From contig JAIYAR010000018.1 in assembly GCA_027488985.1 (NCBI GenBank), forward strand, positions 180,202 through 244,201: a stretch of DNA of 64,000 nucleotides, in the 5' to 3' direction. Shown here one piece after another: positions 438-64,000 of the stretch (positions are counted from its first letter, which is position 1; the number at the start of each line of letters is the position of its first letter). This DNA comes from Comamonadaceae bacterium. Its GTDB lineage: Bacteria; Pseudomonadota; Gammaproteobacteria; Burkholderiales; Burkholderiaceae_C. A program made the position numbers and the translations under genes. The notes beneath the pieces were generated by a model that saw only the letters and a program-made list of their open reading frames with translations, was not told where the DNA came from and ran no database searches.

Positions 438-500
438 GCTATATTTTTGATAGCTTCTCGCGCACATTTCACGAGCGCGAGGCGCCTATTTGGCATCAAT
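438..500 (+). repeat. Dispersed repeat family A, copy 1 (intergenic)
   Basis: This is a copy of a roughly 60 bp repeat that recurs nine times in the window. It starts with gctatatttttgatagct, continues with tctcgcgcacatttcacgag, and ends in a cgcctattt tail. It fills almost all of the gap between the convergent glcB and VTT-protein genes. The VTT gene's stop codon lies at its right edge. Confidence 0.75.
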
Positions 501-2570: not shown

Positions 2571-2632
2571 GCTACGCTTTTTATAGCTTTCCGCGCATAT
2601 TTCATGAGCGCCAGAAGCCTATTTCTCTTCAG
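2571..2632 (+). repeat. Dispersed repeat family A, copy 2 (intergenic)
   Basis: This copy lies between the convergent cytochrome c and CYTH genes (gap 2550-2763). It contains ttatagctttccgcgcatat then ttcatgagcgccagaagcct, followed by atttctcttcag, the same tail as copy 3 at 21219. No gene was seen in the rest of the gap. Confidence 0.78.
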
Positions 2633-14721: not shown

Positions 14722-15771
14722 ATGCACAGCACCGCGGGCTCCGCCCAACATCCTTTCGAATCTCTCACTCCCGATATCGTGCTGGACGCGCTGGAAAGCG
14801 TGGGCCTGCGCGGCGACGGGCGCCTGACCGCCCTCTCGTCCTACGAGAACCGCGTCTACCAAGTGCAACTGGAAGACGGCGCCCCGGTGGTGGCCAAGTT
14901 CTACCGCCCGGAACGCTGGACCGATGCTCAGATTCAGGAGGAGCACGACTTTGCCAGCGAACTAATGGGCGACGAAATCCCCGCAGTAGGACCATTGGTG
15001 CTCAATGGCCAGACGCTTCATCACTTCGGAGGCTTTGCCTTCTCGGTGAGCCCCCGCCGAGGTGGCCGCCCGCCCGAGCTGGACGATGGCGAGGTTCTGG
15101 AGTGGATTGGCCGCTTTCTGGCGCGCATCCATGCGGTGGGTGCCAAGCGTCCCTTTGTGCACCGCCCGGCCTTGGATGTGCAAACCTTCGCCAGAGAGCC
15201 CATGCAGTGGCTGCTAGCGAACCAGATGGTGCCGCTGGATGTGCAAACCCTGTGGAGCGAGCGCTGCCAGCAAGCTATTGATTTGATAGCTGCTCGCGCA
15301 GATATGGCGGGCGCTACAGGCCAAAACAAGACCAATACGAGCGGCATACGCCAGCTGCGCCTGCACGGCGACTGCCACCCGGGCAACATCCTCTGGACGC
15401 CGACCGACGTAGCCGCCAGCGCGGGCCCAGGTCCGCATTTTGTGGACCTGGACGACGCCCGTACCGGTCCCGCAGTGCAAGACCTCTGGATGCTCCTCAG
15501 CGGCGACCGGCAGCAACAAACCCGCCAGCTCGGCATGCTGGTGGACGGCTACGAGCAGTTCCGCGAGTTCGACCGGGCCGAGCTGGCGTTGATCGAGCCG
15601 CTGCGCACATTGCGCCTGATCCACTACAGCGCCTGGTTGGCCCGGCGCTGGAGCGACCCGACGTTTCCGGCGAATTTTCCGTGGTTCGGCAGCAGCGACT
15701 ACTGGAAGGGCCAGATCCAGATGCTGGAAGACCAGATCGAGGCCATGGAGCAGGACCCGATGATCGTATGA
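14722..15771 (+). CDS. srkA: Stress response kinase A (YihE-like)
   Basis: A 349-residue protein kinase of the YihE/RdoA family, which in E. coli counters programmed death after stress. The catalytic motif is LHGDCHPGNILW, then VDLDDARTGPAVQDLWMLLSGD with the metal-binding aspartate; the C-terminus FPWFGSSDYWKGQ is family-typical. The ATG at 14722 is preferred over a TTG at 14695. A stretch of about 19 residues (185-203) between ERCQQ and the catalytic motif is encoded by a copy of dispersed repeat A and looks like an in-frame insertion. The stop overlaps the PAP2 start by 3 bases. Confidence 0.9.
   Translation: MHSTAGSAQHPFESLTPDIVLDALESVGLRGDGRLTALSSYENRVYQVQLEDGAPVVAKFYRPERWTDAQIQEEHDFASELMGDEIPAVGPLVLNGQTLHHFGGFAFSVSPRRGGRPPELDDGEVLEWIGRFLARIHAVGAKRPFVHRPALDVQTFAREPMQWLLANQMVPLDVQTLWSERCQQAIDLIAARADMAGATGQNKTNTSGIRQLRLHGDCHPGNILWTPTDVAASAGPGPHFVDLDDARTGPAVQDLWMLLSGDRQQQTRQLGMLVDGYEQFREFDRAELALIEPLRTLRLIHYSAWLARRWSDPTFPANFPWFGSSDYWKGQIQMLEDQIEAMEQDPMIV
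15274..15329 (+). repeat. Dispersed repeat family A, copy inside srkA
   Basis: Begins gctattgatttgatagctgc, continues tcgcgcagatatggcgggcg, and ends ctacaggccaaaa. It aligns with the intergenic copies over its whole length and is read in frame as AIDLIAARADMAGATGQN. Confidence 0.75.
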
Positions 15772-21218: not shown

Positions 21219-21281
21219 GCTATCAAATAAATAGCTACTCACGCATATTTCATGAGCGCTGGAGGCTTATTTCTCTTGAAG
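21219..21281 (+). repeat. Dispersed repeat family A, copy 3 (overlaps PAP2 3' end)
   Basis: Reads gctatcaaataaatagctac, tcacgcatatttcatgagcg, ctggaggcttatttctcttg. The right edge supplies the last two codons and stop of the PAP2 gene on the minus strand. Bases 21161-21218 between it and the riboswitch hold no recognisable gene. Confidence 0.78.
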
Positions 21282-22085
21282 CCTGGATTGCACCAACCGC
21301 CAGAGATAGGTCGCCAGACTCGTACCCGCCACCACAGCAAGCACCAGTTGCACGCCATGGTTCTCCGGAAAATCCAACTGCTCAGTGAGCAGATGGAAGA
21401 TGGACAAAGCCACCAGCACGGCGGCAATGCGCGGCCCCCACGCGGACGGCGCAAACTGTTGTTCCGGCAAGCGGATCCAGATCTGATGTCCTAGCAAACC
21501 GGCGAGCAAGCCCAGACTCGCTCCCACCGCCACGTCACCCGGCCAATGGGCGCCGACCGCAATGCGGGAGAGTCCGGCGCCTGCTGCAAGCACCAACAGC
21601 CACCAGTGACGCCGGCGTTGGGCCACCGTGAGGGCAAAGTAAATGCCCGCAGCGACCGCGAATGCGGTCAGGGTATGGCCGGAGGGCATAGAGACGTTAT
21701 GCAGCAGCTCCCCCACCACGCGCATTTGCGCGTTGTCGACCACCGCCGCAGGGCGCGGGCTCTCGATCAAGAACTTGCCGGTGCGAGCAAACAGCACGGC
21801 AAAGGGAGCCGCACACAGCCAAGCCACCATAAGGCGAGGCGCAAATACCAGCAATGGGGCCGTTACCGCCAGCAGGCCCCAGCCATTGCCCAACAAAGAC
21901 AAACCGGTCCAGAATTCGGCCGCCACCGGCGCACACCATTGGTTGATGGTGATGAAGAGCGTGGGCTCCCACAGTTGCAGCCACAGAGGCGTGCTCAGAA
22001 CAAAAATCACCAATGGCCACCACCAGCTGCGGGCGGACACCGGGCTGGCAAGTGCGTGGGGCGTAGTGGGGCGAGGCATGGGCAT
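21267..22085 (-). CDS. PAP2-family phosphatase
   Basis: A 272-residue protein with six membrane segments and all three PAP2 motifs: KFLIESPRP (KX6RP), PSGH in SMPSGHTLTAFA, and SRIAVGAHWPGD. It probably dephosphorylates undecaprenyl pyrophosphate or another lipid pyrophosphate at the periplasmic face. It follows the GT39 gene on the same strand by 6 bases, so lipid-linked sugar metabolism is a reasonable shared theme. The C-terminal QEK residues and stop are encoded by a dispersed repeat, suggesting the original end was replaced. Confidence 0.83.
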   Translation of the reverse strand: MPMPRPTTPHALASPVSARSWWWPLVIFVLSTPLWLQLWEPTLFITINQWCAPVAAEFWTGLSLLGNGWGLLAVTAPLLVFAPRLMVAWLCAAPFAVLFARTGKFLIESPRPAAVVDNAQMRVVGELLHNVSMPSGHTLTAFAVAAGIYFALTVAQRRRHWWLLVLAAGAGLSRIAVGAHWPGDVAVGASLGLLAGLLGHQIWIRLPEQQFAPSAWGPRIAAVLVALSIFHLLTEQLDFPENHGVQLVLAVVAGTSLATYLWRLVQSRLQEK

Positions 22086-26603: not shown

Positions 26604-27821
26604 TCAGTCCTTGGCTTGCGGCGCGCGGGCTACATGTTGCACCAAAAGTGCAAACACCCCCGCCACCACGCCCCAAAAGGCGGAACCCACACCGGCAATT
26701 ACCACCCCACTGAGTGTGACCAGAAAAGTAATGAGTGCCGCTTCACGGTTGCGCTCGTCCTGCAACGCGGAATGCATGGCACCACCAATGGTGCCCAAGA
26801 GGGCCAACCCGGCTATCGCCGCCACCAGTTCTTTGGGAAAGGCGGTCAACACACCGGTAATGGCCGCACCAAAGAGACCAATCACCACATAAATCGCACC
26901 ACAGGAAGCAGCCGCTGTGTAGCGGCGCGCCGGGTTGGTGTGGGCTTCCGGCCCCATACAGATGGCAGCGGTGATGGCGCTCAGGTTCAGCGCGAAAGCC
27001 CCGAAAGGTGCCAACACCAGGGTCATCAGCCCGGTCAGGGTAATGACTTTGGAGATGGGAATACCCGTATCGCCGCCTTGTGCATGACGGTCGGCAAAGC
27101 CGGCCGCTTGTATAGCCGCGACGCCAGGGAGGTTCTGCGAAGCCATGGTCACGACAAACAAAGGCAAAGACATACTGATGAATGCCGCCATTGAGAACGC
27201 AGGTGCAACAAATACCGGCATCGTCAAGCCAAAGTGGATGTTTGCGCCCGTAAATTCTGCGCGAGCAGCTACAAAAATAATAGCTACCAGCAGAGTGAGC
27301 GGTACTGTATACCGGGGCAAAAAGCGCTTACCGAGCAGGTAAGTCACCAGCATCAGAGTCACCAAGGGCAATGCGGTTTGGGCGGCGGCAAAACCTTGCA
27401 AGCCGAAACGAGCCAATACACCGGCGAGCAAGGCTGAGGCTAGCGCCAGGGGAATGCGGTTCATGACACGCTCGAACCAACCGGTGGCTCCAGCCACGGT
27501 GATGAGTACCGCGCACAACATGAACGCACCCACACCATCGGCCATGTTGAATCCGCCTGCGGTCGCCGCGGTGGCCAGCACTGCCGCGCCGGGCGTGCTC
27601 CATGCGACCATGACCGGCTTCTTCCACCACAGGGAGGGCAACAAAGAGCAAAGTCCCATGCCGATACCCAGCGCCCACATCCACGAGGCGACCATCTCGG
27701 GCGTTGCGCCCAAGGCCAGTGCCGCCTGAAACACAATCGCCACCGAGCTGGTAAAGCCCACCAGCACCGCCACAAAACCGGCAGTGAACGCCGAGAGACT
27801 CAGGTCTTTGAAAAATCGCAT
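26604..27821 (-). CDS. benE: BenE-family benzoate/H+ symporter-like transporter
   Basis: A 405-residue protein with about 12 membrane helices. Family pieces are AFTAGFVAVLVGFTSSVAIVFQAA, WSTPGAAVLATA, SLPLFVVTMASQNLPGVAAIQAAGF and AAICMGPEAHTNPARRYTAA. BenE moves benzoate inward with protons, but no benzoate catabolic genes are nearby, so the substrate is open. Residues VAIIFVAARAEFTGAN near position 195 are encoded by a copy of dispersed repeat A, in frame. The start at ATG 27821 fits family length; the longer open frame is rejected. Confidence 0.85.
   Translation of the reverse strand: MRFFKDLSLSAFTAGFVAVLVGFTSSVAIVFQAALALGATPEMVASWMWALGIGMGLCSLLPSLWWKKPVMVAWSTPGAAVLATAATAGGFNMADGVGAFMLCAVLITVAGATGWFERVMNRIPLALASALLAGVLARFGLQGFAAAQTALPLVTLMLVTYLLGKRFLPRYTVPLTLLVAIIFVAARAEFTGANIHFGLTMPVFVAPAFSMAAFISMSLPLFVVTMASQNLPGVAAIQAAGFADRHAQGGDTGIPISKVITLTGLMTLVLAPFGAFALNLSAITAAICMGPEAHTNPARRYTAAASCGAIYVVIGLFGAAITGVLTAFPKELVAAIAGLALLGTIGGAMHSALQDERNREAALITFLVTLSGVVIAGVGSAFWGVVAGVFALLVQHVARAPQAKD
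27241..27284 (-). repeat. Dispersed repeat family A, copy inside benE
   Basis: On the minus strand: gctattatttttgtagctgc, tcgcgcagaatttacgggcg. This is among the closest matches to the family consensus, yet it lies within a membrane-protein reading frame and is translated as AIIFVAARAEFTGA. Confidence 0.72.
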
Positions 27822-27839
27822 TCCCGCATTGTCAGCGAT

Positions 27840-27960
27840 GCGGGCAGCGCCCCGCGCAGCGACGGAGCACGGGGGCCAGGTGTCACCGCCGGGCCGCCCC
27901 AAGGTGAAACACGCCCCCACAGGGGGCAGCGCCCCGCGCAGCGGCGGAGCGTGGGGGCCT
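27840..27960 (+). repeat. Dispersed repeat family B, partial copy followed by full copy
   Basis: A GC-rich element: CAGCGCCCCGCGCAGCGACG near 27844, then a complete unit from 27889 (ccgggccgccccaaggtgaa ... cacagggggcagcgccccgc ... gtgggggcct). It fills most of the 137-base gap between kup and benE. Its right edge merges with the kup stop codon. A related copy in the opposite orientation is at 36200-36299. Confidence 0.65.
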
Positions 27961-32573: not shown

Positions 32574-33896
32574 TCATTTCCGCACTTCGCCCTCACCCAG
32601 CACCACGTACTTCAGGGACGTGAGACCTTCAATACCCACGGGGCCGCGGGCATGGAATTTGTCGGTGCTGATACCGATTTCAGCCCCCAAGCCATACTCA
32701 AAACCATCGGCAAAGCGGGTGCTGGCATTCACCATCACGCTGGCGGAATCCACCTCGCGCAAAAACCGTTGGGCATGCACGTGGTTGGTGGTGAGAATGG
32801 CGTCGGTATGGTGGCTGCTGTATCGGTTGATATGCGCAATGGCCTCGTCCACACCGGCCACCACTTTCACACTGACGATGGGCGCAAGGTACTCCTCGTA
32901 CCAGTCTTGCTCGGTAGCAGGCACCAGTTTTGCTCCTGAATCGGTAGCTGCTTGCGCAGTATCCACGGGCGCCAGCAGCAATTTTCCTTGCAAAACAGCC
33001 AGCGCCTCGGGGTCGCAGCGCATCTCTACGCCCTTGTCGGCGTAGACCTTGCCGATCAAGGGCAGGAACTCAGCGGCCACACCTCGTGCCACCAGCAGAC
33101 CCTCAGTCGCATTGCAGGGGCTGTACTTGTTGGTCTTGGCGTTGTCCGCCACCTTGACGGCCATAGCGATGTCGCAAGGGTCGTCCACATAAGTGTGGCA
33201 ATTGCCGTCCAGGTGCTTGATGACAGGCACCTTGGCATCGCGGCTGATGCGTTCGATGAGGCCCTTGCCACCGCGGGGAATGATCACGTCCACAAACTGT
33301 GGCATGGCAATCAACTGCCCCACCACTTCACGGTCGGTGGTCTGCACCAGCTGCACGGCGTCTGAAGGCAAACCGCTCTCAGTGAGCGCCTGTTGCACCA
33401 GCTTGGCCAGCGCCTTGTTGGAGTCAATCGCCTCCGAGCCACCGCGCAAGATGCTGGCGTTGCCGCTCTTGATGGAGAGGCTGGCGGCCTCGATGGTCAC
33501 GTTCGGGCGGCTCTCGAAAATCATGCCGAACACACCGATGGGCACTCGCATCTGGCCCACGCGGATACCGCTGGGCTGCTGTTTCATGCCGATAATTTCG
33601 CCGATCACATCGGCCATGGCGGCCAGTTGCTCGCAACCTTCGGCGCAGGTTTCCAGCACCTTGGGGGTAAGTTTCAGGCGATCCACCATGGGAGCAGACA
33701 GTCCATTGGCCACCGCGCGCTCAATGTCCTTGGCGTTGTCCACCTGCAAGGCCTGGGTGTTCTCGCGCAGCAGCTCCGCCAGGCGGCGAAGCGCTCTGTT
33801 TTTCATAGCTGCCGGCGCACGCGCCATCAGCGCGGATGCCACTTTTGCTTGTGAACCAAGGGCCAGGGTGTATTCGGTGGTGTTGGTGGCGTTCAT
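32574..33896 (-). CDS. proA: Gamma-glutamyl phosphate reductase
   Basis: A 440-residue enzyme that reduces gamma-glutamyl phosphate to glutamate semialdehyde in proline synthesis. Family pieces are [49 protein letters not shown], the nucleophile region [11 protein letters not shown], and the C-terminal [17 protein letters not shown]. The start at ATG 33896 is chosen over 33959. Residues near 310-325 ([19 protein letters not shown]) are encoded opposite a copy of repeat A. proB is not in the window. Confidence 0.96.
32932..32985 (+). repeat. Dispersed repeat family A, copy inside proA (antisense to gene)
   Basis: On the plus strand gctcctgaatcggtagctgc, ttgcgcagtatccacgggcg, ccagcagcaatttt. 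It aligns with the consensus across the core and the right half but is more diverged at the left end. ProA is read through its complement without a frame break. Confidence 0.6.
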
Positions 33897-33958
33897 GGGC
33901 TGATTTTCGCAGATGTCTAGGCGCGGGGCATTCCAACCGCTTTCTCTAGAATTCATCA

Positions 33959-36199: not shown

Positions 36200-36299
36200 A
36201 GGCCCCCACGCTCTGCCACTGCGCGGGTCGCTGCCCCAACTAACGAAGGGGTTCCAATGAAACCGTGGGGCTAGTTTCAGCTTGGGGCGGCCCGGCGCT
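36200..36299 (-). repeat. Dispersed repeat family B, copy between holA and arginase
   Basis: On the minus strand this reads cgggccgccccaagctgaaa, then a diverged middle, then ttggggcagcgacccgcgca and gagcgtgggggcctt. It matches the unit at 27889-27960 at both ends with a longer middle. It fills most of the gap 36185-36330. Confidence 0.65.
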
Positions 36300-39460: not shown

Positions 39461-42229
39461 TCAGACGACGATGTTGACCAGGCGGCCCGGCACCACGATG
39501 ACCTTCTTGGCAGAGGCGCCTGAAGCATGGCTCACAAACACGTCACTGGCCAGCGCGGCCGCTTCGATGGCGGCCTTGTCAGCGCCTGCCGGCACGCGCA
39601 CGGCTCCGCGCAGCTTGCCGTTGATCTGAAGCACCAGTTCGATCTCGTCTTGCACCAGGGCTGTCGCGTCCACCTGGGGCCAAGGCGCATCCAGCAGATC
39701 GCCCAATGCGGAGGCATAGCCCAGCTCGGACCACAGGGCGTGCGACAAGTGTGGCGTAGCGGGGTACAGGCAACGCAGCAGGATGCCGAAACCTTCGATC
39801 AGGGCCACTTGTGCACCTGCGCTGTCCATGGCTTTGAAGCCTTCCAGCGCGTTGATCATTTTCATCGCACCCGACACCACCGTGTTGTATTGCATGCGCT
39901 GGTAATCAAAGTCCACCTGCTTGAGCACGGTGTGCATTTCCAGTCGCAGCGCCTTGGCTTCCTTGCCGAACTCCACGTCATTAAGGCTCTTGGCGCCCGC
40001 CACGCTTGCGCGAGCAGCTACAGAATCCATAGCAGACAACTTGTAGCCGAAGTTCCAGACACGGCGCAGGAAGCGGTAGCTGCCTTCCACCGCCGAGTCG
40101 TTCCACTCCAGCGTGGCCTCGGGCGGCGAGGTGAACATGGTGTAGATGCGGGCGGTGTCTGCGCCGTACTTGGCGATCAGCTCCTGCGGGTCCACACCGT
40201 TGTTCTTGGACTTGGACATGGTGCCCACGCCCTCGTAGTCAATCGCGGTCCCCACCGGCAGCGAACCGTCGGCGCTGTCCACCTGGACAATCAGCTTGGC
40301 GCCCACTACCTTGCCGGCTGCGTCATGCACGTGCTCCACATCCTTGGGCCAGAAGTATTCCTTGCCGCCCTTGGCGGTGCGGCGGCTGTAGATGTGGTTG
40401 AGCACCATGCCTTGGGTCAGCAGCTTGGTGAAAGGCTCGTCCACCTTGACCAGCCCCAGGTCGCGCATGACCTTGATCCAGAAGCGGGCGTACAGCAAGT
40501 GCAGGATGGCGTGTTCGATACCTCCGATGTATTGGTCCATGCCGCTGCCGCCGGTAGCGGCATTCTGGTCCCGCATCCAGTAGTCAGTACCGCCGGCCAC
40601 CATGGCGTCCGGGTTCTTCGGATCGCAATAACGCATGAAGTACCAGGACGAGTCCACAAAGGTGTCCATGGTATCGGTCTCGCGGCGCGCGGCCTTTCCG
40701 CACACCGGGCACACCACCCCGGCGTGGAATCCTTCGTGCTTGTGCAGCGGGTTACCGGAGCCATCGGGCACGCAGTCCTGCGGCAGCACCACGGGCAGGT
40801 CTTTTTCAGGGACCGGCACGGCGCCGTGTTCATCGCAATGGATGATCGGGATGGGCGTGCCCCAATAACGCTGGCGGCTCACGCCCCAGTCGCGCAGGCG
40901 CCAGGTGGTTTTCTTCTCGCCCAAGCCTTTGGCTGCCAAGTCTGTAGCCACTGCATCGACCGCTGCTTTGTAGGCCAAACCGTCGTACTTGCCAGAGTTC
41001 ACCGTCACGGCGCGCTGCTTGTCGCCATACCAATCAGCCCAAGACTCCAGCGAGAAGGTTTCGCCCTCGGCGGAGACGACCTGCTTGATCTCGATACCGT
41101 ACTTCTTGGCAAACGCAAAGTCGCGCTCATCGTGAGCAGGCACGCCCATCACGGCGCCATCGCCATAGCCCATCAACACATAGTTGCCTACCCACACCGG
41201 CACGTGGGCGCCGGTCAGCGGGTGGGTCACGAACAAGCCGGTGTTCAGGCCCTTCTTCTCTTGCGTGGCCAGCTCGGCTTCGGTGGTGCCACCGGTTTTG
41301 CACTCTTCAATAAAGGCGGCCAGCGCGGGGTTGGAGGCTGCAGCGTGTGCAGCCAGAGGGTGCTCAGGCGCCACCGCGCAGAAGGTCACACCCATTACGG
41401 TATCCGCACGGGTGGTGAACACGTACATGCGGCCGTCGCCGATCAGGGCTCCGCTTGCGTCCTTGATGTCGTGGGTAAAGGCAAAGCGAACACCTTCGGA
41501 CTTGCCGATCCAGTTTTCCTGCATCAGGCGCACGCGGTCGGGCCAGCCGGTGAGCGTGGCCTTGTCGTTACCCATTTGCACGTGGTCCAGCAGCTCTTGC
41601 GCGTAGTCGGTGATCTTGAGGTAGTAGCCGGGGATCTCGCGCTTCTCGACCACCGCACCGGTACGCCAGCCTTTGCCGTCGATCACCTGCTCGTTGGCCA
41701 ACACGGTCTGGTCCACCGGGTCCCAGTTCACGACTTGGGTCTTGCGGTAGGCAATGCCTTTTTCCAGCATCTTCAGGAACAACCATTGGTTCCATTGGTA
41801 GTAATCGGGATCGCAGGTGGCGACTTCACGGCTCCAGTCGATGGCCAGGCCCATGGCCTGCATCTGGCCCTTCATGTACGCAATGTTCTCGTAGGTCCAC
41901 TTAGCAGGGGGGACTCTGTTTTTGAGCGCCGCGTTTTCGGCAGGCAACCCGAACGCATCCCACCCCATGGGCATGAGCACGTTGTGGCCGTTCATGCGCA
42001 GGTAGCGGGCCAGCATGTCGTTGATGGTGTAGTTGCGTACATGACCCATGTGCAGCTTGCCGCTGGGGTACGGCAGCATGGAGCAGGCGTAGAACTTCTT
42101 CTTGGGCTTGCCGTCCACGCCCACGGCGTTTTCGGTGACCCGGTAGGCGGTATCGCCATTCCACAAAGGCTGTGCCCAATGGGCTTGCGCGGCTTGTTCT
42201 ACGTCGAGGTGCTGGTACTTGTCTTGCAT
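39461..42229 (-). CDS. leuS: Leucyl-tRNA synthetase
   Basis: A 922-residue class Ia synthetase. HIGH-type motif [15 protein letters not shown] near residue 53, the editing domain in the middle ([35 protein letters not shown]), [16 protein letters not shown], and KMSKS-type [12 protein letters not shown] near 630 are all in place. Residues [15 protein letters not shown] near 735, in the anticodon-binding linker, are encoded by a copy of repeat A in frame. An antisense open frame covers the whole gene but is a codon-composition shadow. Confidence 0.97.
39983..40033 (-). repeat. Dispersed repeat family A, copy inside leuS
   Basis: On the minus strand gctatggattctgtagctgc, tcgcgcaagcgtggcgggcg, ccaagagc. 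Translated in frame as [16 protein letters not shown], in the same frame as the copies in srkA and benE. Confidence 0.68.
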
Positions 42230-49693: not shown

Positions 49694-49696
49694 GTG

Positions 49697-49752
49697 CCAA
49701 TTAGGGCTCTGGCGCTCATGGAAACTTCGCAAGCAGCTACTCTTTTGATAGC
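49697..49752 (-). repeat. Dispersed repeat family A, copy spanning the mtnN stop
   Basis: On the minus strand gctatcaaaagagtagctgc, ttgcgaagtttccatgagcg, ccagagccctaatt. The TAG of the family core TAGCT is the stop codon of mtnN. The repeat fills the 43-base gap to corA. Confidence 0.7.
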
Positions 49753-50489
49753 AGATTCAGTATTTCCATGACAAAGGCCCGAGCGTAACGGCTTGCCGTC
49801 TCTCGCACGAACTGTGGAAAGTCTGCGTGTGCCGTGTCATCGGCACGGTCTGAGATAGTGCGCATGGCCACGAAGGGAACGCGGTAGTCGGCACACACTT
49901 GGGCGACAGCTGCGCCCTCCATCTCCACTGCCAAGGGGCGGTAGCCGTAGGCGGCCAACCCGTCCAGCAAGACTGCCACTTCGGCAGAGCTGCTGATAAA
50001 CCGGTCACCACTGGCGATCAGCCCCTGGTGCAGATGAGCCGGATACTGTTCCGTCCGCAACACTGGCTGCACCCGTTTGAAGGCTTCGCAGGCGGTGGCT
50101 GCCAGTGAGGCATCTGCGGCAAAAAGTGCTTGCCCGCACAGCGGAATCTCGAAGCGCGGAAACAGGGGGGATGCATCCATGTCGTGCTGCACATAGTGGG
50201 TACCCACCACCACATCGCCCACCTGAACCCCGCGCCCTACCCCGCCGGCTACGCCGGTAAACACCACATGCGTAGCACCGAAATGTGCAATCAAGCCCGT
50301 AGCCGTGGTCGCTGCAGCCACTTTACCGATACGCGAAAGCGCCAGCACCACCGGGAGGCCTTGCATGCGGCCAGTCCAAAAGACGCGCCCTCCATGCACC
50401 ACCTGCTGAGCATTTTGCAGGTGCTCCAGCAAACCCTCTTGTTCTTCAGCGAGTGCGCTCAGTATGGCGATGGGGGAATCAGGGCTCAT
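49737..50489 (-). CDS. mtnN: 5'-methylthioadenosine/S-adenosylhomocysteine nucleosidase
   Basis: A 250-residue enzyme that cleaves adenine from MTA and SAH. Family pieces are IAILSALAEEQEGLLEHL, VVFTGVAGGVGRGVQVGDVVVGTHYVQHD, GLIASGDRFI and VEMEGAAVAQVC, with ISDRADD near the C-terminus. The C-terminal residues LLSKE and stop are encoded in a dispersed repeat, so the original tail may have been exchanged. Confidence 0.93.
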   Translation of the reverse strand: MSPDSPIAILSALAEEQEGLLEHLQNAQQVVHGGRVFWTGRMQGLPVVLALSRIGKVAAATTATGLIAHFGATHVVFTGVAGGVGRGVQVGDVVVGTHYVQHDMDASPLFPRFEIPLCGQALFAADASLAATACEAFKRVQPVLRTEQYPAHLHQGLIASGDRFISSSAEVAVLLDGLAAYGYRPLAVEMEGAAVAQVCADYRVPFVAMRTISDRADDTAHADFPQFVRETASRYARAFVMEILNLLSKE

Positions 50490-55443: not shown

Positions 55444-55947
55444 ATGACCGAACGATGGAAACCCAGCGTTACCGTAGCTGCAGTGGTGGAGCAAGACGGC
55501 AAGTTCCTGCTGGTGGAGGAGCACACACAGGAAGGTTTGCGGCTTAACAACCCGGCGGGCCACTTGGACCCCGGCGAGTCGCCAGCTCAAGGTTGTGCCA
55601 GGGAAGTGCTGGAAGAAACCGCCTACCCCTTCGTGCCCACGGCACTGGTGGGCATTTACCTGTCGCGGTTTGTCAGAGAGCGCCCTACCGGCCCGGATGA
55701 CATCACCTACCTCCGGTTCGCATTTTGCGGCACCGTGGGTCAAGTAGTTGCGGGGTGGGTGTTGGACCACGGCATTGTCCGGGCCGTCTGGCTGACACCG
55801 GAAGAAATTCGTGCCAGTCAGGACCGGCATCGCAGCCCCTTGCTCTTGCAATGCATAGAGGACTATCTGCGCGGTCAGCGCTACCCCCTGGAGGTAATTC
55901 AAACTGATTTGAGCGTCTGGGCTCCTTGGAACTTGCTACAAAAATAG
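55444..55947 (+). CDS. nudJ: NUDIX hydrolase, NudJ-like
   Basis: A 167-residue phosphatase with the Nudix box GHLDPGESPAQGCAREVLEETA (near residues 39-60). SVTVAAVVEQDGKFLLVEE precedes it. NudJ proteins act on nucleoside tri- and diphosphates and HMP-PP. It lies just upstream of mnmA, as in E. coli. Its last codons and TAG stop are encoded in a dispersed repeat, which fills the gap to mnmA. Confidence 0.88.
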   Translation: MTERWKPSVTVAAVVEQDGKFLLVEEHTQEGLRLNNPAGHLDPGESPAQGCAREVLEETAYPFVPTALVGIYLSRFVRERPTGPDDITYLRFAFCGTVGQVVAGWVLDHGIVRAVWLTPEEIRASQDRHRSPLLLQCIEDYLRGQRYPLEVIQTDLSVWAPWNLLQK

Positions 55948-55990
55948 TAGCTATCCGCGCTTAATCCATAAGCGCATATCGCCAATTCAC
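55935..55990 (+). repeat. Dispersed repeat family A, copy spanning the nudJ stop
   Basis: gctacaaaaatagtagctat, ccgcgcttaatccataagcg, catatcgccaatt. The nudJ stop TAG lies within its first 15 bases. The right part is more diverged than in other copies. Confidence 0.6.
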
Positions 55991-56031
55991 CTCTGAATGC
56001 CGGCATTTGGTCCTACGACTAAAATCAGGCG

Positions 56032-61951: not shown

Positions 61952-64000
61952 ATGGCTACTTCCCAAATTTCTGCCCAAGCCCGCGGCGTTGTTGTCATCC
62001 TGCAAGGTAATGCATGGGTGGTTTCACCAGACGGAAGCAAACGCGCTATCAAGCTGGGCGATGAGATTCAGGAAGGCCAAGTCGTCCTTACCGAGAATGG
62101 AACACGACTGGAACTCGCACTACCGAATGGACGGGAGATCAGCCTCGAATCAGGTCGAGAACTTCTGATTGATGCAAATTTGCTGGGCCTTGCGCCGGAA
62201 GACGCAACAAACGCCGCGCTCAAAGACCTCAACAGCAGTCCTGCAGCCATCGCCAGAGTGATTGCCTCCGGAGGAGATCTTTCTGCCGAATTGGATCCGA
62301 CAGCTGCGGGTTTAAGCGGGGGAGATGCGAGTGACTCGCACAGCTTTGTGCGGGTCATGCGTATCAGCGAGGCAGTAACGCCGCTATCGATTGACAGAGC
62401 TGCAGACAATAGTTCGGAGGAGTTCCCGCAACTCGGCGCTCAACTATCCACGGTGCCAGCACCCACAGTCAACAGCATATCGAACCCAACTCAAACCGAG
62501 GGCAATGCCTTGGTCTACAGTGTTTCGCTTTCCGGAAGCACGATCACTTCGACTACTTATTCACTTTTAATTGGAAGTGGCACAGCAGCGTCGTCTGACT
62601 ATGGAACGCCAGTATTTAGTAACGGTGTAACTTATAACTCCGCTACAAGCACTGTAACGGTGCCAAGTGGGGTTAGCAGCTTTACCGTCTCAATTCCGGC
62701 GATCGACGATCTTTTGTATGAGCAGAGTGAAACTGTTCCTCTGACTATTGGGGGAGTGACCGGTGTCGGCACCATCGTTGACAACGACGCACCGACGCTA
62801 ACCATCAACGATGTGATCATCAATGAGGCTGCCGGCACCGTGACCTTCACCGTCACCCGCGCAGGCGACCTCACCCAGGCCGCCTCCGTCCAGTACGCCA
62901 GCGCCAATGACTCCGCCACCTCCGGCGCAGGCAACGACTACACCGCCGTCGCAGGCACCTTGAACTTCGCCGCCAACGTCGCCACCCAGACCATTACCGT
63001 TGCCATCAACAACGACTCGGTCTTTGAAGGCGCTGAGTCTTTCAACATCAACCTCTCCAACGCCGTCGGCGCTGTCATCACCGACAACCAAGGTGTGGGC
63101 ACCATCGTCGATGACGGGCGCACTCTGCCCGGCGGCGGTACCGCCAACGACGACCGCCCGGTCTTCAACGTGGGCTCGGACTTCATCGTCGATGAGGCCG
63201 CAGGCACCATCACTTTCACGGTCACCAAGACCGGCTCCACCAATCTGGCTTCCTCCGTGGCCTTCACTACCGTGGACGGCTCCGCCTCCGCCGGCAGCGA
63301 CTACACCGCAACCGCAGGCACTCTGACTTTTGCAGCCAACGAGACCTCCAAGACCATCACCGTGCCCATCACCAATGACACGGTGTTTGAAGGTGCCGAG
63401 TCTTTCAGCCTGCAAATCAGCACGCCCACCAACGCCACCATCGGTGACAACTCTCAAGTCGCCACCATCGTCGACGATGGCCGTACCCTGCCCGGCGGCG
63501 GTACCTCCAACGATGACCGCCCTTCTGTCTCCATCGGCTCCAATGTGGTCATCGATGAGGCCGCCGGCACCGTCACTTTCACCGTCACCAAGACCGGCTC
63601 GACCAACCTGCCTGTCACCGTCGATTTCGCAACCGCCAATGGCTCTGCCACTGCAGGCTCCGACTACACCGCAACCAACGGCTCTCTGACCTTTGCGGCC
63701 AATGAGACGACCAAGACCATTACGGTCAATATCACCAACGATACGACCTACGAGATCAGCGAAGACTTCACCGTCTCCCTCTCCAATGTCTCCGGCGCTA
63801 CCTTGGGCACTTCCAGTGCTACCGGTACCATCGTCGACGATGGCCGCACCCTGCCCGGTGGCGGCACTGCCAACGATGACCGTCCAGGCTTCTCCATCAA
63901 CGATGTGATCATCAATGAGGCTGCCGGCACCGTGACCTTCACCGTCACCCGCGCAGGCGACCTCACCCAGGCCGCCTCCGTCCAGTACGCCAGCGCCAAT
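61952..64000 (+). CDS. LapA-type giant surface adhesin with Calx-beta repeats (3' end outside window)
   Basis: At least 683 residues, open to the window edge. Residues 1-115 form the retention module of LapA-like adhesins (ARGVVVILQGNAWVVSPDGS, IKLGDEIQEGQVVLTENGTRLELALPNG). DPTAAG at 115-120 carries a TAAG site as cut by LapG proteases. After a linker come Calx-beta-type repeats of about 121 residues (NEAAGTVTFTVTR, AGSDYTATAGTLTFAANET, TIVDDGRTLPGGG), starting near residue 285. The C-terminal secretion signal must lie beyond the window. Exported by the adjacent type I system, retained at the outer membrane for attachment and biofilm. Confidence 0.9.
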   Translation, partial: MATSQISAQARGVVVILQGNAWVVSPDGSKRAIKLGDEIQEGQVVLTENGTRLELALPNGREISLESGRELLIDANLLGLAPEDATNAALKDLNSSPAAIARVIASGGDLSAELDPTAAGLSGGDASDSHSFVRVMRISEAVTPLSIDRAADNSSEEFPQLGAQLSTVPAPTVNSISNPTQTEGNALVYSVSLSGSTITSTTYSLLIGSGTAASSDYGTPVFSNGVTYNSATSTVTVPSGVSSFTVSIPAIDDLLYEQSETVPLTIGGVTGVGTIVDNDAPTLTINDVIINEAAGTVTFTVTRAGDLTQAASVQYASANDSATSGAGNDYTAVAGTLNFAANVATQTITVAINNDSVFEGAESFNINLSNAVGAVITDNQGVGTIVDDGRTLPGGGTANDDRPVFNVGSDFIVDEAAGTITFTVTKTGSTNLASSVAFTTVDGSASAGSDYTATAGTLTFAANETSKTITVPITNDTVFEGAESFSLQISTPTNATIGDNSQVATIVDDGRTLPGGGTSNDDRPSVSIGSNVVIDEAAGTVTFTVTKTGSTNLPVTVDFATANGSATAGSDYTATNGSLTFAANETTKTITVNITNDTTYEISEDFTVSLSNVSGATLGTSSATGTIVDDGRTLPGGGTANDDRPGFSINDVIINEAAGTVTFTVTRAGDLTQAASVQYASAN
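62802..64000 (+). repeat. Tandem Calx-beta coding repeats, three full units and the start of a fourth
   Basis: Each unit is close to 363 bases and ends with the linker DDGRTLPGGGT and NDDRP. The first 107 bases of the first unit (62802-62908) recur identically at 63894-64000, 1092 bases (364 codons) later. Units two and three differ from each other and from the first mainly in the first half. The pattern points to recent duplication or gene conversion and probably continues beyond the window. Confidence 0.9.

Follow-up and report, generated by a model that had tools for sequence, protein, structure and literature searches.

REP and BIME sequences are imperfect palindromes scattered behind genes in hundreds of copies. 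Sequences that serve for DNA uptake, that is, the DUS of the Neisseriaceae and the USS of the Pasteurellaceae, have cores of 9-10 bp and, for USS, a no-gap test has been used to show that they are not insertions (both points from the excerpted parts of PMC1626085). DUS are found behind genes as well as in genes (PMC3630211, in part), and in-gene placement, terminator-like dyads and dialects have all been described for them (PMC3630211; PMC2346458, both in excerpt). In the part of the former paper considered here, the DUS of S. muelleri are reported to have no reading-frame preference (PMC3630211). Finally, the Rickettsia palindromic elements (RPE) form a palindromic family that is located between and inside genes, with a preferred open frame and a shared peptide (PMC10969869, in part).

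The window analyzed here is a stretch of 64,000 nt from the draft genome of a Comamonadaceae bacterium (G000:C10:180202-244201, G000 being the window's own genome) whose closest named relative, as judged by SrkA, is Rhodoferax sp. TH121 (90%). The gene srkA (yihE), which codes for the stress response kinase A, is located at 14722..15771 on the + strand (NCBIfam PRK11768, E 2e-148; PDB 1zyl yihE, E 5e-95), and it harbors at 15274..15330 (+) a copy of a 57-nt motif, read in sense frame 0 as the peptide AIDLIAARADMAGATGQNK. The description of 15274-15329 as a copy of a dispersed repeat, given in an earlier note on this DNA, is well founded: (i) the core GATAGCTGCTCGCGCAG is present at 15285-15301 with 0 mismatches; (ii) a covariance model (R1; 57 nt, trained on 14 copies with the srkA copy left out) gives 45.3 bits to 15274-15330 (E 5.9e-7 in 864 kb); and (iii) a nucleotide HMM from nine other window copies also recovers the srkA copy. 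The window contains five matches to GATAGCTGCTCGCGCAG with up to three mismatches, against 0.22 expected from shuffles, and its own genome has seven exact cores, srkA's included, and 0 of the reversed pattern. A blastn search of plasmids with srkA gave a single distant match. AlphaFold models SrkA with a mean pLDDT of 80 and places the motif at the end of helix 172-190 and in helix 193-199; residues 201-207 have a pLDDT below 50 and the catalytic region after them is also poorly modeled. As a weak structural hint, then, the SrkA linker comes where a helix ends, ahead of the catalytic HGDCHPGN loop, which is probably a position where the peptide that the motif encodes can be accommodated.

The family to which this copy belongs is long and degenerate, with a consensus of about GCTATnnWTTnnATAGCTGCTCGCGCAnATTCCAyGGGCGCTAGnGGCCnATTTGnC, in which the conserved positions are scattered across the 57 nt rather than gathered in one short, strong stretch of about 9-12 nt. 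Three AT-rich tracts are present at around positions 8-11, 29-31 and 51-54, with a spacing of about 21 nt, i.e. two helical turns. In 864 kb of sampled sequence, roughly a quarter of the genome (the window and 800 kb from two contigs), R1 gives 124 matches at E ≤0.1; according to our own hexamer-based gene calls, 63 of them fall wholly within genes, 37 are intergenic and 24 overlap genes in part, and in five of these 24 the stop codon of the gene ends at motif position 16. The whole genome has at least 150 copies, as 150 of 2838 candidates were scored and 150/150 matched, and by extrapolation the total would be about 500. A second core, TAGCTGCTNGCGC, occurs 75 times in forward and 77 times in reverse orientation (152 in total) in the draft contigs of G000, against 1 and 0 for controls. 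Across 150 genomes of the family (126 genera) it is far over control in a minority, and in a set of 60 genomes, one per genus, the covariance model has a match in 21. Some genomes of other genera are richer in this core (G112, 243+206; G210, 117+131; G224, 108+129). Viral contigs gave 41 stretches matching ATAGCTGCTCGCGCA, a number guessed to be about what chance yields in a collection of that size. No Rfam family matches the window at gathering thresholds; a search by title of the open-access literature found nothing relevant on the repeat or on a Comamonadaceae uptake sequence, and novelty in print is unproven.

Within the window, two intergenic copies are located at 438..494 (+; 69.9 bits, the top score) and 2571..2627 (+; 65.5 bits). 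Three copies lie at gene ends: (i) 21219..21275 (+; 61.4 bits), which overlaps by 9 nt the 3' end of the gene at 21267-22010 (-); (ii) 49696..49752 (-; 58.3 bits), which provides the stop codon of the gene at 49737-50489 (-), ending at motif position 16; and (iii) 55935..55991 (+; 52.4 bits), at the 3' end of the gene at 55444-55947 (+). Apart from srkA, copies fall within benE (26604-27920, -; BenE by Pfam) at 27228..27284 (-; 64 bits), within leuS (39461-42229, -; by NCBIfam) at 39977..40033 (-; 54.6 bits), and, in antisense, within proA (32574-33956, -; by NCBIfam) at 32932..32988 (+; 58.6 bits). proA has in addition a weaker, motif-like antisense copy at 33793..33849 (+), which reaches 48.6 bits by R1, of which it is a training copy, and 15.7 bits by the HMM built from intergenic copies. 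Two copies in a single gene are also found elsewhere in the sample (C3 42241-42297 and 42961-43017; C7 352491 and 354336), the genes with two copies including one of 329 codons and one that codes for a penicillin-binding protein. Apart from this family, the window has at 62802-64000 a tandem array with a unit of about 363 nt (units 61-72% alike), which continues beyond the end of the window and perhaps codes for a repetitive protein.

The earlier note had proposed that the repeat is adapted to, or tolerated by, protein coding, and in the sampled quarter of the genome the 63 of 124 copies wholly in genes agree with that idea. The copies in srkA, benE (peptide AIIFVAARAEFTGANIHFG) and leuS do share, as it had claimed, the reading frame and the peptide pattern, all three being read in sense frame 0. 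Its suggestion of a profile search scored by frame was followed with an HMM from 52 intergenic or end-overlapping copies, which, at 20 bits or more, gave 56 in-gene matches across 751 genes (768 kb): 30 in antisense frame 2 and 22 in sense frame 0, so that two frames account for 52/56. Among all 63 in-gene copies the distribution is sense 0, 24; antisense 2, 24; antisense 0, 10; sense 2, 3; and antisense 1, 2. The 52 training copies are free of stop codons in 31 and 39 cases in the two preferred frames and in 19 cases in each of two other frames; since these other frames are also open, stop codons alone predict 62.5% of the matches in the two frames, not 93% (p 2e-7).

The sites themselves hardly move. 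Window copies that could be compared in five syntenic relatives are mostly at the same place in all five, with diverged spacers around them, and that in srkA is at the same site in 5/5; for those at 438 and 2571, the syntenic match is missing in five and four of the five relatives, respectively. The exception is proA, whose copy at 32932..32988 is gone in G067 and G001, where an in-frame 42-nt gap is found and the adjoining stretch differs on both sides too. Between G000 and G034, 113 copies were examined, 39 of them without homologous DNA in the stretches compared and 16 with one flank only; of the 58 comparable copies, 56 are at the orthologous site and two were scored absent, one of which is visibly there, below threshold. 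In the reverse direction (G034 to G000), 66 were examined, with 56 present, 0 absent and 10 not comparable. The DNA of the motif is also constrained between these two genomes: of the four-fold degenerate sites within the motif 298/381 (78%) are identical, versus 5419/8340 (65%) in the remainder of the 38 genes that carry it (p 4e-8), and positions 15 (29/29) and 24 (30/30) do not vary at all. In 28 intergenic pairs identity is 0.77 in the motif versus 0.47-0.49 in the flanks, positions 2, 3, 15, 16, 17, 24 and 25 being identical in all 28; the copies were picked by their match in G000, which can inflate these identities somewhat.

Furthermore, the spelling of the motif differs between lineages. 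Two patterns that differ only at position 39 (GCGC or GGGC) were counted in 100 same-genus genomes, and matched 32 and 42 of them. Expressed as GCGC:GGGC, some genomes are almost entirely of the first type (G034, 63:1; G007, 43:1; G059, 46:0), others almost entirely of the second (G015, 2:103; G066, 3:105; G088, 2:95; G044, 3:50; G092, 7:63), and others are mixed (G067, 24:17; G095, 43:20; G050, 19:67); G048, with 3 copies in 100 kb, has too few for a dialect consensus. From G000 to G050, position 39 changed from C to G at 30 of 49 unique, orthologous and unmoved copies (53 orthologous rows, less four that share a G050 copy) and from G to C at 0, against a background at four-fold sites of 209 genes of 21% for C-to-G and 25% for G-to-C, with alanine GCG becoming GCC in 41%. 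As the HMM was trained on C-type copies, detection was biased against this result. Eighteen of the 30 switched sites are in genes, where 13 changes are synonymous and five are not, including Ser-to-Arg replacements in Maf and a radical SAM gene. The srkA copy matches the dialect of its genome in 15 of 20 assignable genomes, an association that is only suggestive. The position-39 switch would appear to have happened more than once.

Taken together, the fixed sites, the lack of indels in at least part of the genes (see below), the synonymous constraint and the concerted spelling changes point to recognition in trans: with a high degree of confidence, these are sites that something else reads and mostly not inserted elements. 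This suggests that a protein reads the motif, perhaps for recognition of its own DNA, and that the motif is not a jumping repeat. A predicted trans-acting factor would recognize the motif as DNA; sites would build up by substitution of sequence that already resembles the motif (such as AARARL in a Maf homologue or ELIAA in E. coli SrkA), an accumulation that the predicted binding protein would drive; and DNA bearing the motif would be preferentially taken up or recombined, leading to enrichment wherever proteins tolerate it. By analogy with known systems, uptake may be the function, with a likelihood that reaches an even chance at most, and the explanation as a whole (trans-recognized DNA sites that are most likely an uptake-type signature of self) is a proposition for which the odds are about even.

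A chromosome-organizing protein fits nearly as well as uptake. The motif might be the site of a protein related to chromosome organization or to transcription (nucleoid structure, segregation, termination), whose specificity shifted in some lineages with the sites following, a serious candidate although clearly short of an even chance. Fixed sites, DNA constraint and dialects are explained equally well by such a protein, and the location behind genes, the few close neighbors and the hairpin arms speak in its favor. The location and the spacing count for the uptake signature as well. As regards location, 55 of 57 non-divergent, non-genic copies have a gene 3' end at a distance of 60 nt or less, a figure in which short spacers were not controlled for, and divergent spacers, 30% of the total spacer length, hold four of the 61 non-genic copies. 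Gaps of less than 1 kb between copies number 6, versus 16.8 expected (0/1000 simulations as low); the overall variation in spacing, 0.87 versus 0.99 at random, is not significant (7.3% of simulations as low). In the main hairpin 81.7% of cells are paired, with weak covariation (22/500 shuffles reach the score), and for that reason the hairpin is not claimed as a function. The competence genes, too, favor this explanation, as they fail to track the motif: among 30 same-genus genomes, 16 motif-rich and 14 motif-free, ComEC is found in 29 and the ComP_DUS-type pilin in 30, "motif-free" denoting no match to either strict position-39 pattern, and these patterns can pass over eroded copies. Against it, about half of the sites are in genes and they occur on both strands, which is odd for termination, and no candidate for such a protein turned up.

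The earlier note had rather seen an inserted repeat, comparable to RPE, and on that account the motif would be a palindromic mobile element (like RPE or MITEs), inserted long ago in permissive frames of genes and in spacers and later kept by selection. This is unlikely, even though the two preferred frames, the additional residues that ProA, C3_204604 and LeuS have at the motif, and the difference in presence that proA exhibits in G067 and G001 would all be expected from it. The gap test covered 13 of 14 chosen in-gene copies (the ABC transporter copy was left out because of paralogues), with homologues drawn from as many as six genomes (two of the same genus, and one each of Variovorax, Ramlibacter, Polaromonas and Acidovorax). 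In four of the 13 genes (Maf, LpxB, PolA and SpoU) the motif is ungapped against every genome compared, which already weakens the idea of entry as an RPE-like element; Maf of G000 aligns without gaps to that of the motif-less G048 while 19/19 codons of the segment differ, and the Maf-like protein BCAL2394 (4oo0), presumably from Burkholderia, is also ungapped across the motif and contains AARARL. Against homologues with less than 10 bits, the length difference is (i) 0-6 residues in NadD, C3_228219, C3_191704, TruB, HemD and MIP, with 2-6 extra residues in some comparisons of TruB, MIP, HemD and NadD; (ii) 0 to 12 residues in LeuS, with 10-12 versus Variovorax and Ramlibacter; and (iii) 9 to 17 residues in ProA and 10 to 24 in C3_204604, near the size of the element. 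These differences exclude a uniform insertion of 19 residues. It counts for the note's view that ProA, LeuS and a third gene carry additional residues at the motif; insertions in variable linkers may contribute to some copies, and a motif-less homologue of the same length may be an eroded copy instead of an empty site, e.g. LeuS in Acidovorax. As for the SpoU-type methyltransferase (L171:10774-11544), Variovorax, Polaromonas and Acidovorax still have recognizable pieces of it at matching codons, and thus that site looks older than these genera.

SrkA itself tells a similar story. The alignment comprised 80 and 30 loci (one of them from the own genome; L115 was left out), and among the loci listed the motif DNA is present in many Rhodoferax loci, Acidovorax, Simplicispira, Giesbergeria and Paracidovorax wautersii, weak in Comamonas, and not apparent in Variovorax, Limnohabitans, Polaromonas and Ramlibacter. 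Counted by eye on the alignment from a conserved W to LRLHGD/IRLHGD, the linker has 33 residues in the window and, in motif-less SrkA, 29 (Variovorax L059), 26 and 23 (Ramlibacter L030 and L062) and 24 (Limnohabitans L074); it is 12 residues longer than that of E. coli YihE, whose native ELIAA stands opposite DLIAA. The left part of the motif overlies a native helix (ELIAA in E. coli, ALDMVRAT in Variovorax), and these lengths and the ELIAA/DLIAA alignment indicate that part of the srkA motif overlies native protein. The extra length in the window is in keeping with a mobile element, and motif-less linkers are shorter, as the note had anticipated for relatives of SrkA; nevertheless, the net change is 4-12 residues, which does not sustain an insertion of about 19. 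The note had also held that the segment occurring with unrelated DNA in a repeat-less SrkA would speak against it, and this is partly the case, for G053 (L098) keeps most of the residues with largely different codons.

On the other hand, srkA of three relatives has genuinely gained another repeat as an in-frame insertion, a precedent for a mobile element. This family B is a GC-rich dispersed repeat of about 81 nt, unrelated in sequence to the 57-nt motif, with five copies in 864 kb of G000; in the window it is located between genes or at a gene end (27886-27958 and 36202-36298). In SrkA of G007 and of G088, family B accounts for 27 extra codons (81 nt), inserted in frame after about residue 97 (VLNGQ; ORF from 14722), G003 has a variant with further residues (loci L375, L376 and L377 for G007, G088 and G003), and in G059 the srkA alignment is split in the same way as in G007 and G088. 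The window srkA is without family B, and the place of insertion differs from that of the 57-nt motif. The statement that a repeat entered srkA in frame is hence literally correct for family B in those three relatives. Against the mobile element stand, moreover, the 56/58 shared sites with their constrained synonymous positions, the concerted C-to-G change at fixed sites, and a Y1 transposase family that does not segregate with the motif, being present in motif-rich and motif-free genomes alike (29/30).

Short-tract gene conversion among copies could alone yield dialects, without any binding protein, and it would account for many copies having changed in concert; it is nonetheless very improbable. 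At the 18 in-gene switched sites, identity at variable positions is 0.70 between orthologues versus 0.42 between non-orthologues; the orthologue-specific letters were thus kept, an argument against copies having been overwritten by conversion, whose tracts would need to be no more than a few bases long. The intergenic switched sites (n of 10) are less clear, at 0.52 versus 0.44. Finally, chance, i.e. that codons often used for Ala-rich peptides happen to look like the repeat, is refuted: native peptides such as AARAR in Maf do encode part of the motif, but the HMM that found 56 matches at 20 bits found 0, 0, 0, 1 and 0 when the codons of these proteins were shuffled synonymously five times and 0, 0 and 0 in three codon-order shuffles, so that the excess of in-gene copies over composition-matched chance, on which the idea of a coding-tolerated repeat depended, is borne out.

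Returning to trans-recognized sites as a signature of self, a broader proposal is put forward tentatively: Rhodoferax, Acidovorax, Polaromonas and related genera may share a hitherto undescribed kind of self-recognition sequence, long (57 nt), dyadic and helically phased and probably for uptake, for which a short segment of around 200 or more proteins per genome would, by extrapolation, have been rewritten (housekeeping proteins such as LeuS, TruB, LpxB and PolA among them), and whose specificity at position 39 would have switched, dragging along many fixed sites, be the change synonymous or not. If true, one group of environmental betaproteobacteria labels its DNA as its own by means of a long signature to which the protein sequence gives way in hundreds of genes, and a specificity-switch experiment has already been run by nature within one genus; which protein binds, with what specificity, and how the signature is traded off against protein function would become directly testable. 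A word of caution also follows: in-frame "repeat insertions" called from a single genome can be changes in place.

How, then, does the motif compare with the systems described at the beginning? With REP and BIME it shares the condition of dispersed imperfect palindromes behind genes in hundreds of copies; yet those are extragenic, whereas here 63/124 are wholly in genes, and Y1 transposases do not track the copies. It resembles RPE, in the part of the RPE account considered (PMC10969869), in being a palindromic family between and inside genes with a preferred open frame and a shared peptide. In contrast to RPE, the motif (i) is 57 nt long versus about 150; (ii) is ungapped in several genes and immobile between the relatives compared; and (iii) uses two frames, sense and antisense, and exhibits concerted dialect changes. 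Assignment to RPE was rejected, as four of 13 genes are ungapped, gaps near the size of the element appear in two, and presence varies little, with 56/58 sites shared with G034 and one ProA case in G067 and G001.

The likeness to DUS and USS is broader: hundreds of copies on both strands, location in permissive coding regions and as dyads behind genes, lineage dialects, an orientation bias relative to the reading frame, and, for at least part of the genes, a probable origin by substitution. The motif is not classed with them because it has no short strong core, because its role in uptake is putative, and because ComEC and ComP_DUS are found in motif-rich and motif-free genomes alike. It also differs in (i) its length of 57 nt, its looser consensus and its layout of two GC-rich arms and three AT tracts that recur at intervals of about 21 nt; (ii) its host, a Rhodoferax-type member of the Burkholderiales; (iii) the extra residues of some copies; and (iv) its two preferred frames, whereas the excerpted account of S. 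muelleri gives none for its DUS. In any case, the spacing of about 21 nt between AT tracts recalls the USS of the Pasteurellaceae, whose segments are helically spaced according to the excerpt of PMC1626085.
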